The position numbers were made by a program, and so were the translations under genes. Below are positions 2,339-43,833 of a stretch of 61,806 bases of DNA, piece by piece. The DNA is taken from the NCBI GenBank assembly GCA_017938285.1, contig JAGBBW010000142.1, forward strand, positions 1 to 61,806. The letters are read 5' to 3'. Source of the DNA: Lachnospiraceae bacterium (GTDB taxonomy: Bacteria; Bacillota; Clostridia; Lachnospirales; Lachnospiraceae). How positions within the stretch are numbered: position 1 is the stretch's first letter; every line of letters begins with the position of its first letter. The notes beneath the pieces were generated by a model. It made no database searches. It was not told where the DNA came from and saw nothing but the letters and a program-made list of their open reading frames with translations.

Positions 2339-3379
2339 GGCAAGGTCGTCAGAAAAGCTTTCTTAACAGAATCCGTGTCAGGATTTGCCACGGATGTTGC
2401 AAAGCAGGTACTTGTCGAGGACAAGTCACTGAAAAAAGTTGATTATGGACAGGCTTTTGAAACTGCTGCGGTTTCCGGTGTGTTCGGTGGTGTCATGGAA
2501 CTGGGTTCTGCTGCTATTTCCAAAGTGGATGACTCAGCCGCAGTACTGGTAAAAAAAGCGAAGATTCCTGAGAAGTTCAAAAAATTTACCCTGCCGGGAA
2601 GCAAGGGCAAATCAGCGGATGCCGACCTGGATATGCCGGCTGCTGGAAAGTCCAAGGGAGCCGACCTGAATATGCCGGCTGCCGGAAAATCCACAGGAGC
2701 AGACCTGGATACGCCAAGTGCCAGCAAATCCACAGGTTCCCTGCCGGATATTCCACAAGGTACAAAGAACAGCCAGATAGACATGGAGGACCTTTCCGGT
2801 CAGGCAGGTCCATCGGTGGAGCTGCCTGAACCAGCAGGGAAGCCGAAGAGTGGAGTACCGGAGCTGCCGACAGGCGGCAAGGTGGATCTGGACTATATAG
2901 TGGTAGATCCTTCAACGATAACACCAACGAATTCGGGTCCGCTTAAGATGAATCTGCAGTTTTTTGCGGAGAGTGGAAGAAACTCCCTTGGAGTAGTAAC
3001 TGGTTCTGGAAATAGTAATGTGTCTCGTATGATGAGAGGAAAGCAAGGGAATATTGGTCTAATTCCTCAAGAAGTAGCAAGTAAGCTCAAGGGAAGAAGT
3101 TTTAATGGTTTTGATGATTTCAGAGGTGAATTCTGGAAAGAAGTGGCAAATTCCTCTTATGCAAAAGAGTTTTCGTTTAGTAATGTAGGTAGAATGCAAA
3201 AAGGACTTGCACCTAGAGTATTGGATACTCAACAATATGATGGAGCATTGAGTTATGTATTACATCATAAAAAACCAATTTATGATGGAGGGGGTGTTTA
3301 TGATTTGGATAATCTCGTGATTGTTACACCTAGAATGCATCAAGAAATATTAGACAAATCCTATCATTTTAATTATTAG
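2339..3379 (+). pseudogene. colicin-E9/pyocin-like HNH DNase toxin, N-terminally truncated
   Basis: The frame is open from 2339; a GTG at 2375 is the first possible start but has no ribosome binding site, so this is probably the C-terminal tip of a larger toxin. Order of parts: an RHS-like hydrophobic pre-toxin stretch (FATDVAKQVLVEDKSL), a low-complexity linker with 13-residue repeats, an LKMNLQFFAE motif, then a DNase domain over about the last 130 residues. The DNase has FDDFRGEFWKEVA, RMQKGLAPR and HHKKPIYDGGGVYDLDN...TPRMHQEI, which follows colicin E7/E9 and pyocin S DNases closely, including the HNH (beta-beta-alpha metal) histidines. The next gene is an Im7/Im9-like immunity protein. 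The nuclease tip itself looks intact. Confidence 0.8.
2621..2737 (+). repeat. three 39-bp tandem repeats in toxin linker
   Basis: Units start at 2621, 2660 and 2699, each beginning GC(C/A)GACCTG. They encode 13-residue repeats of the type ADLDMPAAGKSKG, giving a flexible, acidic/proline spacer between the pre-toxin part and the DNase tip. The third copy is the most diverged. Confidence 0.8.
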
Positions 3380-26106: not shown

Positions 26107-26263
26107 TTTTATTGTGAGTTTTACACAAAATTTCCAGGGTCAGATTGTGCAGACTGCCGAAAGAGGAATTGGAGTTTTCTGGAATAAATTCTGGACAATC
26201 TGAACAAAGAAATAAACATTTTTCGGCAAAAGAACCAAAAATGAAGAATTTTGGAAAAAGTCA

Positions 26264-26292
26264 TTGACAGGAGAGAATTTCCCGGCTATCAT
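26264..26292 (+). promoter_or_regulatory. promoter of the Tad pilus operon
   Basis: TTGACA (26264-26269), 17 bases, TATCAT (26287-26292). The leader that follows folds AATTTTCC (26301-26308) with GGGAAATT (26331-26338) around a CCGGCA/TGCCGG hairpin. The remaining bases between bofA and the first tad gene show no gene. Confidence 0.8.
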
Positions 26293-26454
26293 GAAGCCAG
26301 AATTTTCCGTATGGTTCCGGCAGTGCCGGTGGGAAATTAAATTTATCAGATTTACTTATTTTTTCTTAGTATCAGGTTTTGTTCTGCGTTTAATAACTAT
26401 TAATCGCAAAATCCCCGAATAGAACTCATACAAAGCAAAAGGGAAGGTGTTGTA

Positions 26455-27360
26455 TTGGAGAAAATCATTGGTATTTTCGACGAACAGGCCGTGTATGCAG
26501 AACGTTTCAAACGTTATATTAACGAACGGAAGGATATTGGCTGTTTCGCCGTGACATTTCAGAAGGAAGAAGAACTTCTGGACTATTGTGCCAGAAAAAA
26601 ACTGAGCTGCCTGGTTGCAGGAGAAGAAGCTGCAAAGCAGCTGAAAGACCAGTCCCTGCCCTGCGGGGTCAGGATGTGGATACTGACAGGCAGGGAGCCG
26701 GCTGCTGTAGAAGCAGAAGGCAGACATTTTTTGTTCCGCTATCAGAAAGCAGGTGAGATAATCCGGCAGATTCTGCTGGTGGAGATGGCCAGGGAAGAAT
26801 ATATGAGTGAGCTGTTTACGGTACTTTCTGTGGAAAGCTGCCGTCTGGCAGCGGAATATGCGGACAGGCTGCTGCAGGAGCTGGCAGAAAAGGGAAAAAC
26901 ATTGTTCCTCCCCTGGGACCCGTTTTATGGATATGGACGGACAGATTCCGGTGATGGAGCCGGTGCGTCTTTAAGTGAGCTTTTATATCTTGTGAGGAAA
27001 GACAGGGAACAGGCCAGAAGGTTATTTGATGGTCTGCCAAAAAGAAATGGAGCAGAATATTTCTGTGGACCGGAATACTGTACGGATTTGTGGCAGTATT
27101 CGGCAGAAGAAATGCGGCAGCTGGTGTTATGCTGCCGGGAATATGGAGGTTACAAGCATGTAGTATTTCTTTGTGGAGCTTTTCATGAGGGTGCAGTATC
27201 CATCATGAACCAGAGCTGCCAGGTGTGTCTGGTGACTTCAGAAACACCGGAGGGAAAACAAAGAAAGCAGGAATTTTACCGCCAGATGAAGTATGCCGGA
27301 GAACAGGGCGTGCTGTCCAGGGTGGTGGAAATTACGGTTTCCACGGAACAGGGGGTGTAG
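26455..27360 (+). CDS. TadZ/CpaE-like protein without a P-loop
   Basis: A 301-residue cytoplasmic protein, first gene of the pilus operon. The N-terminal 100 residues have a receiver-like alternation of strands and helices (IIGIFDEQAVYAERFKRYI). The second half has the strand order of a deviant Walker ATPase (KTLFLPWDPF, then ELLYLVRKD and HVVFLCGAFH), but no GKGGxGKT motif, so it probably does not hydrolyse ATP. TadZ proteins place the pilus machine at the pole. Start is TTG 26455 with AAGGGAAGG upstream. The tadA gene follows after nine bases. Confidence 0.7.
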   Translation: MEKIIGIFDEQAVYAERFKRYINERKDIGCFAVTFQKEEELLDYCARKKLSCLVAGEEAAKQLKDQSLPCGVRMWILTGREPAAVEAEGRHFLFRYQKAGEIIRQILLVEMAREEYMSELFTVLSVESCRLAAEYADRLLQELAEKGKTLFLPWDPFYGYGRTDSGDGAGASLSELLYLVRKDREQARRLFDGLPKRNGAEYFCGPEYCTDLWQYSAEEMRQLVLCCREYGGYKHVVFLCGAFHEGAVSIMNQSCQVCLVTSETPEGKQRKQEFYRQMKYAGEQGVLSRVVEITVSTEQGV

Positions 27361-42025: not shown

Positions 42026-42150
42026 GGGGATGTAGCTCAGATGGTAGAGCATTTGGCCGAAACGTAGTGCCTTGGCAAAGGCACGGACAGCAAACCAGAA
42101 CGATGAGGGTATTTATGCAGATTGTCGCAGGTTCGATTCCTGTCATCCCC
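42026..42150 (+). ncRNA. tRNA-shaped Y-RNA-like RNA (candidate Ro60-like partner)
   Basis: Ends: GGGGATG (42026-42032) pairs perfectly with CATCCCC (42144-42150), a 7-bp acceptor stem. D arm: GCTC-AGATGGTA-GAGC. T arm: GCAGG-TTCGATT-CCTGT with the TTCRA loop. Between D and T arms lie about 75 bases instead of an anticodon arm: TTTGG pairs with CCAGA, then an asymmetric internal loop (CCGAAACGTA against GGACAGCAAA), then GTGCCTT/AAGGCAC with a GGCA tetraloop. ACGAT/ATTGT forms a variable-arm hairpin. The strand TGGCCGAAACGTAGTG resembles the Ro60-binding strand of vertebrate Y RNAs (TGGTCCGAAGGTAGTG). There is no anticodon loop and no encoded CCA. A Ro60-related gene follows. Confidence 0.8.
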
Positions 42151-42154
42151 GCTA

Positions 42155-42220
42155 AAGGCGGCCACAGCAACTAATTTTGGATTGGAATTCACTTAAAATG
42201 GGTTTAAACTATGCCGCCTT
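42155..42220 (+). promoter_or_regulatory. long-range stem between the RNA and the DUF2828 gene
   Basis: AAGGCGGC (42155-42162) and GCCGCCTT (42213-42220) are perfect complements over 50 bases that include small AATT and TTTAAA palindromes. No T run follows, so it may be an attenuator, a processing signal or a 3' domain of the RNA rather than a plain terminator. Confidence 0.45.
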
Positions 42221-42279
42221 GTTTGAAAGAAAAAAATCAGAAGGAATAAGTGTTTATAAATGAAGGGAGGAACTGCAAA

Positions 42280-43833
42280 ATGTCAGATATGGGTAAGTTT
42301 TTAGATTCCTTACAGGATGCACTTTTGGAACCGTCCAATGTCAGCGTGACGGAAAACGGCGCTGTCGGTTACCGTACCACGGGAAAAGCACTGCTTGACT
42401 TGAATTTTGCAGTGTCTTCTCTGCGGAACGTGAGTGAGGAAGAAATCATAAACCGCTTTGTCAAGGCGTTTTATGAGGATAAGCGTCTGGCGGTGAAGTG
42501 GCTGTTTTTTGCTTCGGACGTGCGCCAGGGCATGGGTGAGCGGAGATTGTTCCGGGTAGTGTTTCAGTACCTGGCAGAGAGCCATCCGGAGATTGTAAAG
42601 GCGGTGTTTTCGCTGGTGCCGGAGTATAACCGGTGGGATAATCTGTGGGGGCTTCTGGATACTGGACTGGCAGGTGCGGTGGCAGATCTTGTGAGGGAGC
42701 AGCTTGCAAAGGATATACAGAATATGGAAGAACAGAAGCCAGTGTCCCTGCTGGCGAAGTGGCTGCCGTCCATCAATGCTTCTTCGGAGGAGACGAGACG
42801 GCGGGCAAAGCAGCTGGCAAACGCACTTGGTATGTCCAATGCGGAATACCGGAGGACGTTAGCTGGTATGAGAGATTATCTGAAGGTGGTGGAGACCAGA
42901 ATCAGCAGGGGTGCGTGGGAAGAGGTGTGCTATGAGCAGGTACCGTCCAGGGCAAACCTGTTGTACCGGAATGCGTTTTTGAAGCATGATACAGAACGCA
43001 GACAGGAGTATCTGGAGAGCCTGCAAAAGGGTGAAACAAAGATACATTCCGGCGTACTGTTTCCAAGTGACGTGGTGCACGGATATTATAAGCCGCTTAG
43101 TTACTGGCGGTCCAGACTCAGCGGCGAGACGGATGCCACGCTGGAGGAACTTTGGAAGGCACTGCCGGATTACGTCCAGGGTGCGTCCAACACAATCTGC
43201 GTGGTGGATGGTTCGGGAAGTATGCAGAGACGTATTGCTGGTACGGAGCTGAGCTGCCAGGAGGTGGCGAATGCACTGGGAATTTACTTTTCGGAACGCT
43301 GCTCCGGCAAGCTGAACGGTAAGTACATTACATTCAGCCAGACGCCGCAGTTTGTCACATTAAAGAATGCGGCAACCCTTAGGGAGAAGCTGGAGATTGC
43401 TTCTGCTTATAACGAGGTGGCAAATACCAATATTGAAGCAGTGTTCGGGCTGCTTCTCCAGACTGCCATTATTGGAAAGCTGAAGCAGGAGGAACTGCCG
43501 GAAACGGTTCTGGTGCTTTCTGATATGGAGTTTGACGACTGTGCCTGTGATTCGGACGGTAATCCGTTCCAGTCCGGCAGACTGCTGGAAACAATTGCAG
43601 AAAAGTTCCGGAAGTGGGGCTACAAGCTGCCAAGACTGGTATTCTGGAACATTGCCGGCAGAACCGGAACCATCCCGGTACGGGAAAATGAGCTGGGCGT
43701 GGCACTGGTCAGTGGATTCAGTCCAGTCATTATGAAGATGGTGCTGAGCAGACAGACGGACCCTTACGAGTGTCTGCTGGAGCAGCTCAATGGAGAGAGG
43801 TATGAGGCTGTAGAGGCAGCACTGGCCGGATAA
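42280..43833 (+). CDS. DUF2828/TROVE-like vWA protein (Ro60 relative)
   Basis: A 517-residue cytoplasmic protein. Residues 1-290 are helical repeats with landmarks of the DUF2828/TROVE group: RLAVKWLFFASDVRQGMGER, LVPEYNRWDNLWGL and KWLPSINASSEETRR. The vWA domain follows (about 300-500) with a metal-binding D-x-S-x-S in VVDGSGSM and LVLSDMEFDDCACD. Ro60 has the same two-part plan: a HEAT-like ring that holds Y RNA and misfolded RNA, and a vWA domain. ATG 42280 has GGGAGGA upstream; GTG 42250 is less likely. It lies 130 bases after the tRNA-like RNA, with no strong terminator between. RNA binding is inferred from family and context. Confidence 0.82.
   Translation: MSDMGKFLDSLQDALLEPSNVSVTENGAVGYRTTGKALLDLNFAVSSLRNVSEEEIINRFVKAFYEDKRLAVKWLFFASDVRQGMGERRLFRVVFQYLAESHPEIVKAVFSLVPEYNRWDNLWGLLDTGLAGAVADLVREQLAKDIQNMEEQKPVSLLAKWLPSINASSEETRRRAKQLANALGMSNAEYRRTLAGMRDYLKVVETRISRGAWEEVCYEQVPSRANLLYRNAFLKHDTERRQEYLESLQKGETKIHSGVLFPSDVVHGYYKPLSYWRSRLSGETDATLEELWKALPDYVQGASNTICVVDGSGSMQRRIAGTELSCQEVANALGIYFSERCSGKLNGKYITFSQTPQFVTLKNAATLREKLEIASAYNEVANTNIEAVFGLLLQTAIIGKLKQEELPETVLVLSDMEFDDCACDSDGNPFQSGRLLETIAEKFRKWGYKLPRLVFWNIAGRTGTIPVRENELGVALVSGFSPVIMKMVLSRQTDPYECLLEQLNGERYEAVEAALAG

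Follow-up and report, generated by a model that had tools for sequence, protein, structure and literature searches.

A probable Y RNA in tRNA order beside a DUF2828 gene of a Lachnospiraceae bacterium, and a paired-stem signature recurring at DUF2828 loci of bacteria and phages

The window analysed here is a stretch of 61,806 nucleotides from a Lachnospiraceae bacterium (assembly GCA_017938285.1, contig JAGBBW010000142.1). On its forward strand a tRNA-shaped element, termed unit 1, lies shortly before a gene encoding a DUF2828/DUF7788 protein. Judging by its sequence and those of its relatives, we consider it probable that unit 1 is a bacterial Y RNA of the YrlA kind written in tRNA order, and that it most likely serves as RNA partner to the DUF2828 protein of the next gene. 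We document its parts, the covariation of its stems, its association with DUF2828 genes and its rotational relation to YrlA. The relevant features are as follows.

42026 to 42150, forward strand: unit 1, an acceptor-closed (tRNA-order) Y-like RNA; Rfam tRNA model 50.1 bits, native-order model R2 52.8 bits (as a training member), covariation with 10 relatives
42026 to 42032, forward strand: acceptor stem, 5' strand GGGGATG; 7/7 pairs with 42144-42150, all seven covarying in relatives
42035 to 42050, forward strand: D arm, GCTC-AGATGGTA-GAGC, by the Rfam tRNA model
42051 to 42055, forward strand: possible anticodon-like stem ATTTG, pairing with CAGAT at 42118-42122; weak (split-stem scan p ~0.07)
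42067 to 42073, forward strand: Y stem, 3'-type strand GTGCCTT, first in the permuted order; 7-bp hairpin with 42078-42084, 7/7 pairs covarying
42078 to 42084, forward strand: Y stem, 5'-type strand AAGGCAC, hairpin partner of 42067-42073, covarying
42087 to 42093, forward strand: conserved ACAGCAA motif, 2 nt past the Y stem, recurring at DUF2828 loci
42127 to 42143, forward strand: T arm, GCAGG-TTCGATT-CCTGT, by the Rfam tRNA model and the relatives' alignment
42144 to 42150, forward strand: acceptor stem, 3' strand CATCCCC, followed by G CTA with no encoded CCA; by pairing and covariation
42280 to 43833, forward strand: DUF2828/DUF7788 protein of 517 aa with a vWA-type DxSGSM motif, a likely Y-RNA-binding Ro-like protein by its Pfam and PHROG matches

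The Rfam tRNA model (RF00005) matches unit 1 over its full length (positions 1-71; 50.1 bits, E 6.1e-10 in a 411-base stretch) and recovers the acceptor, D and T arms of a tRNA, with an anticodon region of 62 nt against 9 in the model. This agrees with the first-pass annotation, which had described a perfect 7-bp acceptor stem (7/7 pairs), D and T arms and a long hairpin at the anticodon position, about 130 nt before a DUF2828/vWA gene; 129 nt separate unit 1 from the ATG at 42280. The insert reads GTGCCTT, a GGCA loop, AAGGCAC, then GG and ACAGCAA. No canonical 7-nt anticodon loop on a 5-bp stem was found in unit 1 with the Rfam model, ARAGORN (which called no tRNA in the window) or the split-stem scan, and the window copy has, to judge from its sequence, lost any recognisable anticodon. 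Folding energy sets the unit only modestly apart from shuffled sequences (z -2.06; 6 of 200 shuffles equally good), and the case therefore rests on conservation rather than on folding energy. The pattern AAAGRYRCNNACAGCAR has its sole match in the window's genome at 42077-42093. A likeness to the Ro60-binding strand of human Y1, to which the annotation had drawn attention, was rejected as chance: the stretch compared, mostly linker plus GTG (the first three hairpin bases), matches at 12 of 16 ungapped positions in the window, whereas 16 other bacterial units, each scored at its best stretch, reach 6 to 9 of 16, so that the vertebrate strand is not conserved among them.

Among 98 related genomes 11 encode a DUF2828 protein, as do 40 of 397 from the family as a whole (both counts include the window's own genome); further copies were found in five named-genome loci, in 682 of 50,697 phage records and on 4 of 72,556 plasmids. 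The three genomes of the same genus that were searched (G001-G003) had no DUF2828 gene. The viral search returned 340 stretches, of which 80 were kept, and the counts below use these together with 45 bacterial loci. Left out of the 45 are L017, whose contig equals that of G023:C9 in length, L018, cut at the gene start, and the pieces of one broken gene (L011-L013), while at least six of the 80 viral loci (L065, L066, L083, L093, L115 and L123) are near-copies whose hits were counted once. We counted non-redundant ACAGCA sites on the same strand within 700 nt upstream of the gene, and scored a partner strand where 7 bp could form with the 7 nt ending 2 nt before the motif. As the motif was first recognised in the bacterial loci, only the viral and named-phage loci test it independently.

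The bacterial genes had 79 ACAGCA sites upstream, whereas four control hexamers gave between 3 and 12 each. A 7-bp partner strand accompanied 62 of these 79, where strand shuffling gave null rates of 4.2% (downstream) and 0.3% (upstream). Most partners lay downstream (54), forming a stem that closes the unit as in known Y RNAs, with ten upstream, forming a local hairpin as in the window, and two sites having both. Viral sites behaved alike, 92 of 134 being paired (null 4.6% and 0.7%), against 3 of 27 bacterial and 2 of 46 viral control-hexamer sites. With the gene start of L032 corrected, 64 of 81 bacterial sites are paired and 37 of the 45 loci have a paired unit. The first-pass annotation had named the absence of homologous RNA at other DUF2828 genes as one outcome that would tell against it, and this is not what we see: at least one paired unit lies within 700 nt upstream in 36 of the 45 bacterial and 46 of the 80 viral loci. 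These counts support the conclusion that the RNA unit belongs with DUF2828 genes. The Y-stem pairs of the units vary among A-U, G-C, U-A and C-G, and the commonest signature, AAAG-RYRC-NN-ACAGCAA ... GYRYCTTG, is not the vertebrate Y RNA motif. Paired units also occur in Bacillus phage PJN02, Listeria phage cka15, mycobacteriophage JoeDirt, Campylobacter F360, Escherichia JLBYU28 and Staphylococcus 6ec; in JoeDirt, JLBYU28 and 6ec the DUF2828 gene comes first and the units follow it.

How specific the motif is depends on the partner strand. The bare pattern AAAGRYRCNNACAGCAR occurs at 124 places in 100 of the 397 family genomes and its reversal at 36; by the same hand count, 24 of the 124 lie within about 2 kb upstream, on the same strand, of the 40 DUF2828 genes. 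Among 30 loci fetched, a partner strand was present at 5 of 5 motifs beside DUF2828 and at 3 of 26 loci elsewhere, two of the three falling inside long open frames. One apparent off-site unit, L166, was set aside as looking like chance. The pattern alone is thus non-specific and separates DUF2828 loci only in combination with its partner. A tight tRNA-order pattern is found at 22 places in 21 of the 397 genomes (one for its reversal), six of them beside DUF2828; of 15 such loci fetched, only the four beside DUF2828 have both hairpin and T loop. Six places outside those 15 comprise the already known window and G036 units and four others.

A descriptor script with a score threshold of 26 recovered 69 tRNA-order units spread over 34 of the 125 loci; with redundant copies removed, 57 remain. 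Seventeen are bacterial, in 13 loci, and L026 holds one more by model R2 (40.6 bits). Each of the 17 has, ending 2 nt ahead of ACAGCA or a variant of it, a best local hairpin of 5 to 7 pairs with a 3-5-nt loop; the hairpin is free of mismatches in 14, a count that has no shuffle control. Eleven of the 17, selected on the quality of their acceptor stem and best local hairpin, were aligned, and the covariation that the annotation had proposed to look for in the Y and acceptor stems was found: all seven Y-stem pairs (100% of cells paired) and all seven acceptor pairs (98.7%) change on both sides. The covariation score was 0.83, against 0.235 for shuffled and 0.10-0.15 for slid alignments. The D stem is invariant in these units and consequently says nothing about pairing. 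Six units were omitted from alignments A5 and A6: L019, L027 (-300 and -171), L048 (-811 and -684) and L051. Their hairpins were weaker, shorter or contained G-U pairs, or their D arm was unusual. Linkers were cut from alignment A5, since a free MAFFT alignment of whole rotated units misplaced the 3' strand.

The tRNA-like body of the units bears a further trace of a tRNA. An anticodon stem split by the Y hairpin is present at p<=0.05 against insert shuffles in 37 of the 57 tRNA-order units, 30 units have 5 bp and U33, and RNAs linked to TROVE genes in L171, L173 and L174 keep a CTGTTAA stretch (Asn anticodon). Because of these split stems and TROVE-linked stretches, the Y stem seems from the sequences to interrupt the anticodon stem in both orders, which would fit one ancestral tRNA-like body. 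A miniature anticodon arm with CTGTTAA recurs in the TROVE-linked RNAs and in several DUF2828-linked tRNA-order RNAs.

The two orders are related by rotation. The same components are arranged as in YrlA at two bacterial DUF2828 loci, L010 and L029, running Y stem, T arm, acceptor 3' strand, loop, acceptor 5' strand, D arm and Y stem. These loci give full-length matches to the Rfam YrlA model (RF02553; 45.6 and 45.7 bits), the sole strong ones in ten loci scanned. Other DUF2828-linked matches are in L175 (40.1 and 34.3 bits) and L181 (39.8 bits), and four of six TROVE loci match (L171 39.9, L173 39.8 over positions 24-84 only, L174 33.8, and L170 27.9 over 23-86 only). The DUF2828-linked RNAs score about as high as the TROVE-linked ones, L010 and L029 higher, and every YrlA match reported here falls below the gathering score of 69. 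Unit 1 has the tRNA-like D, T and acceptor arms and, like YrlA, adjoins a Ro-like gene and possesses a putative protein-binding stem. It differs from YrlA in that the two ends of the conserved element pair as the acceptor stem and the putative protein-binding stem is a closed hairpin, and in that ACAGCAA is absent from the matching place in four TROVE-linked examples (in L171 and L173 a CAGCAA lies about 40-60 nt before the matches, outside the stem).

From the same 11 tRNA-order units we built two models: for R1 the units were first rotated into YrlA order, and R2 keeps their native order. R1 matched four of the six TROVE Ro60 loci (L173 50.0, L174 47.9, L170 41.1 and L171 40.9 bits, the matches in L174 and L170 covering the tRNA-like part and not the Y stem) as well as DUF2828-linked RNAs in L175 (53.6 and 32.2), L010 (46.2), L029 (35.0), L181 (38.5) and L183 (31.9). 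The unrotated R2 gave 15.6-22.1 bits at the TROVE loci and L010, and 15.6 to 24.9 over the R1-matched places of the TROVE loci, L175, L010 and L029. The window itself scores 21.5 bits with R1 and 52.8 with R2, of which it is a training member. Such scores alone are non-specific, and acceptor pairing was therefore checked in 35 R1 matches, including the best 20 of 33 viral ones (the viral searches with both models covered 74 of the 80 loci, the six near-copies named above being left out). Twelve had 7/7 acceptor pairs and a short cap (L010, L063, L084, L087, L090, L171, L173, L174, L175 twice, L181 and L183), twenty had 3-5 of 7, as at tandem junctions, and three (L029, L085 and L170) were not parsed or were misparsed. 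The YrlA-order loci, the R1 and R2 scores and the acceptor pairing together support the view that unit 1 is a YrlA-type bacterial Y RNA in circularly permuted form; the annotation had supposed such a permutation relative to known Y RNAs. Tandem units stand 6-9 nt apart in several viral arrays, a spacing which hints that permutation came about through duplication and loss. A circular superposition of the YrlA structure 6CU1 on tRNA has already been published, as an excerpt of PMC11472068 indicates.

The window protein matches DUF7788 (PF25043; E 7.8e-43, 146.7 bits, cut-off 27.1), DUF2828 (PF11443; E 7.6e-36, 124.3 bits, cut-off 29) and phrog_850, 'RNA-binding protein' (E 3.5e-125), and its DxSGSM motif is invariant across a 12-sequence alignment. 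Its kinship with TROVE, which the annotation had taken as known, is weakly supported by sequence. A profile comparison with hhalign aligns DUF2828 with TROVE collinearly over 393 columns, the DxSGSM metal site included (E 2e-4, probability 47%, 16% identity), and alignment A2 gives E 2.8e-4 over 316 columns. Against this, the protein has no TROVE match (PF05731) at E up to 1, its score for vWA_Ro60 (12.6 bits) is below the cut-off of 27.7, and a PDB profile search reaches TROVE entries only at E 0.24. No PF05731 protein was found in the window's own genome, which is 87% complete, and NCBIfam returned nothing meaningful for the window protein. Homology of DUF2828 to TROVE is suggestive only; the window protein is likely a distant relative of human Ro60. 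Phage proteins point in the same direction. JoeDirt gp52, annotated as a 'Ro-like RNA binding protein', and CKA15_055 of cka15 are both tblastn matches of the window protein, and an excerpt of PMC12282133 gives an HHpred match of CKA15_055, a DUF2828 member, to Rsr. Proteins of mycobacteriophage clusters C and AF, which may or may not be DUF2828 members, match RO60 structurally according to a portion of PMC12363180.

Several observations weigh against reading unit 1 as the Y RNA of the DUF2828 protein. Firstly, no paired unit was present in the region scanned in 9 of the 45 bacterial and 34 of the 80 viral loci; the ACAGCA of KVP40, at -27, has no convincing partner, two ACAGCA sites of the plasmid locus L178 are unpaired by the script's rule, and Klebsiella phage KP2025 has no unit upstream of its gene and two YrlA matches downstream. 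Secondly, 100 AAAGRYRCNNACAGCAR places lie away from DUF2828, against 36 for the reversed pattern, an excess without explanation. Thirdly, the covariation was measured on units selected for the quality of the stems concerned, R1 reaches 41 bits at junctions between tandem units and R2 54 bits on a match the size of a plain tRNA, and at two TROVE loci R1 stops short of the Y stem. Lastly, RF02553 has no match at the window at E up to 5, a scan of the locus recognised no promoter or terminator, and NCCA is encoded in only 9 of the 57 tRNA-order units.

Taking unit 1 as a tRNA-order Y RNA, we envisage two modules. The 7-bp stem with ACAGCAA 2 nt on, common to the counted units, would most likely be gripped by the protein, while a tRNA body with acceptor, D and T arms forms the second. 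In YrlA the RNA begins and ends at the protein-binding stem, and a loop caps the acceptor stem; in unit 1 the same circle would have its break at the acceptor stem, with a 4-nt loop sealing the protein-binding stem. Enzymes that mature tRNAs may cut its ends, RNase P before 42026 and 3' processing near 42151, the latter cut perhaps also freeing a second RNA, unit 2, with a start at about 42152-42154. DUF2828, as a ring, would bind the stem and ACAGCAA, and the tRNA body could bring a tRNA-recognising enzyme or nuclease to the ring, much as the Y RNA of Deinococcus radiodurans tethers Rsr to PNPase. The fuller scheme – putative maturation by the tRNA machinery (RNase P, 3' processing and CCA addition), a Ro-like ring seated at the anticodon's place, and a toggle between tRNA order and YrlA order through tandem duplication and loss of outer halves – is put forward tentatively, and we think it doubtful as a whole.

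Four other explanations were considered. That the unit is a phage-type decoy, its tRNA body baiting host anticodon nucleases or tRNA-modifying enzymes while DUF2828 merely protects it, is unlikely. The abundance of DUF2828 among phage records would suit such a role, as would its position by tRNA genes in KP2025, JLBYU28 and cka15, the last with RNA ligase genes near its DUF2828 copy. The window's neighbours, however, look chromosomal and housekeeping (open reading frames judged by eye as methylthioadenosine/S-adenosylhomocysteine nucleosidase-like, MurG-like and DnaX-like), and many units, unit 2 included, have no tRNA-like part to serve as bait.

Alternatively, the units may be elements of the 5' untranslated region through which DUF2828 controls its own mRNA, in the manner of an autoregulatory decoy. 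In most bacterial loci examined they do lie just upstream of the gene on its strand, and a sequence-motif scan places a WYL/WCX-type regulator gene before the units or the DUF2828 gene in 9 of the 45 (L031, L032, L033, L034, L035, L038, L046, L053 and L055); a Pfam check of two of these confirmed WCX in L046 (2.7e-08) and found nothing in L031. We nevertheless hold a cis-acting leader to be quite improbable, given the units found downstream of the gene in the three genomes named above and, by YrlA match, in KP2025, and given the closed tRNA acceptor stem, which argues for a free RNA.

A true tRNA gene with an intron-like Y insert, the hairpin being removed or tolerated to yield a translating tRNA, would account for the anticodon stems that form across the insert and for the textbook loops of some units, such as CTGTTAA (Asn), CTGATAA (Ile) and CTGTCAC (Asp). 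The window unit, with neither a canonical anticodon loop nor an ARAGORN call, does not fit this account, and since RNAs beside TROVE genes (L171, L173 and L174) share CTGTTAA, an anticodon-like arm is no proof of translation. As we also know of no bacterial splicing route for a Y-type insert of this sort, we regard the explanation as very unlikely. A decayed tRNA pseudogene with a chance insertion, to which the degenerate anticodon arm and modest fold of the window copy might point, is rejected as barely credible: its stems are perfect and covary in relatives (7/7 and 7/7 pairs, which largely refutes it), ACAGCAA is shared and the same gene stands alongside.

Between unit 1 and the DUF2828 gene lies a further element, overlooked by the first-pass annotation.

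42154 to 42221, forward strand: unit 2, a Y-closed RNA, AAAGGCGG-CC-ACAGCAA ... loop ... CCGCCTTG, with no tRNA-like interior; motif and partner strand present, closing stem forming in the fold

The ends of unit 2 pair as a stem of the protein-binding type, as in YrlA, yet it has no tRNA-like part; its fold has a z of -1.66 against shuffled sequences, 11 of 200 being equally good. Another Y-closed unit, in L041 (minus strand, about 3215-3290), has D, anticodon-like and T arms inside in ordinary tRNA order, so that by reading of the sequence the Y stem replaces the acceptor stem; the tRNA model gives it 45.3 bits over positions 5-66. In KP2025 a 432-nt 'tRNA-Arg' is annotated over the DUF2828 start (L175 1405-1836), of which the tRNA model covers just 1405-1476. 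Some DUF2828 genes adjoin other structured RNAs, namely Gut-1 RNA in two copies (L014 2783-2940) and Clostridiales-1 RNA (L005 174-339), and these matches show no sign of being the same RNA as the Y-like units. The gene is in pieces or has an internal stop in two genomes (L011-L013 in G080 and L058 in G328), as for a dispensable gene. PADLOC gave no match.

Comparable systems are known from phages and from Deinococcus. Y RNAs have been identified in mycobacteriophages (Chen 2014, as cited in PMC12282133) and, in an excerpt of PMC12282133, proposed for Listeria phage cka15. The Ro-like proteins of JoeDirt and cka15 belong to the same family as the window protein and have paired ACAGCA units nearby; they differ in that the window locus looks chromosomal and its tRNA-like unit stands in tRNA order. 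The highly transcribed cka15 region at 26,236-26,727 (CKA15_059-061), thought a possible Y RNA by its authors in that excerpt, matches ROOL RNA (RF03087; 90.1 bits, E 4.5e-17, cut-off 99.1; L180 3470-4021, or 26,195-26,746 of OR088597.1), and the paired ACAGCAA units of this phage lie at 4673, 4762 and 4831 of L180, just before the DUF2828 gene. In the RYPER model of D. radiodurans, as outlined in a portion of PMC8394870, a Y RNA tethers Rsr to PNPase. RYPER and the window locus share a vWA-containing protein of comparable length, RNA-binding in the former and presumably in the latter, and an RNA gene close to it; the difference is that by Pfam the window protein is DUF2828/DUF7788 and not TROVE. 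Permuted tRNA genes of algae and archaea have the tRNA body opened elsewhere, the gene being permuted and the product a normal tRNA. Unlike these, the gene of unit 1 is in tRNA order, and it is its relative YrlA that is permuted. TROVE proteins of jumbo phages are reviewed, in an excerpt of PMC7824862, as an RNA-repair platform with a tRNA-like partner; by analogy, this and the cka15 RNA ligases may point to tRNA or rRNA repair and quality control.

We found no report of a Y RNA in tRNA order or of an ACAGCAA signature at DUF2828 genes; Chen 2014, Sim and Wolin 2018, Sim 2020 and Wang 2018 may mention it, and the literature indexed under DUF2828 consisted of plant papers. Bacterial and phage Y RNAs that mimic tRNA are already known, and it is the tRNA-order form that appears to be new. 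The annotation's phrase, a candidate new type of Ro/Y ribonucleoprotein, is too strong, mycobacteriophage Y RNAs having been reported earlier according to PMC12282133 in the part cited above.

The DUF2828 association would add a large and widespread set of Ro-like particles, to be found in phage records and in roughly one in ten genomes of a single bacterial family, and a short RNA signature would make such particles searchable. The same RNA in two circular orders would amount to a natural experiment, making it testable why bacterial Y RNAs mimic tRNA and whether the enzymes that mature tRNAs make or use them. Should the fuller scheme prove true, an RNA quality-control or repair ring would enter the tRNA pathway, with its modification enzymes and perhaps EF-Tu or a synthetase, and evolution would use permutation to switch between alternative routes to one particle.

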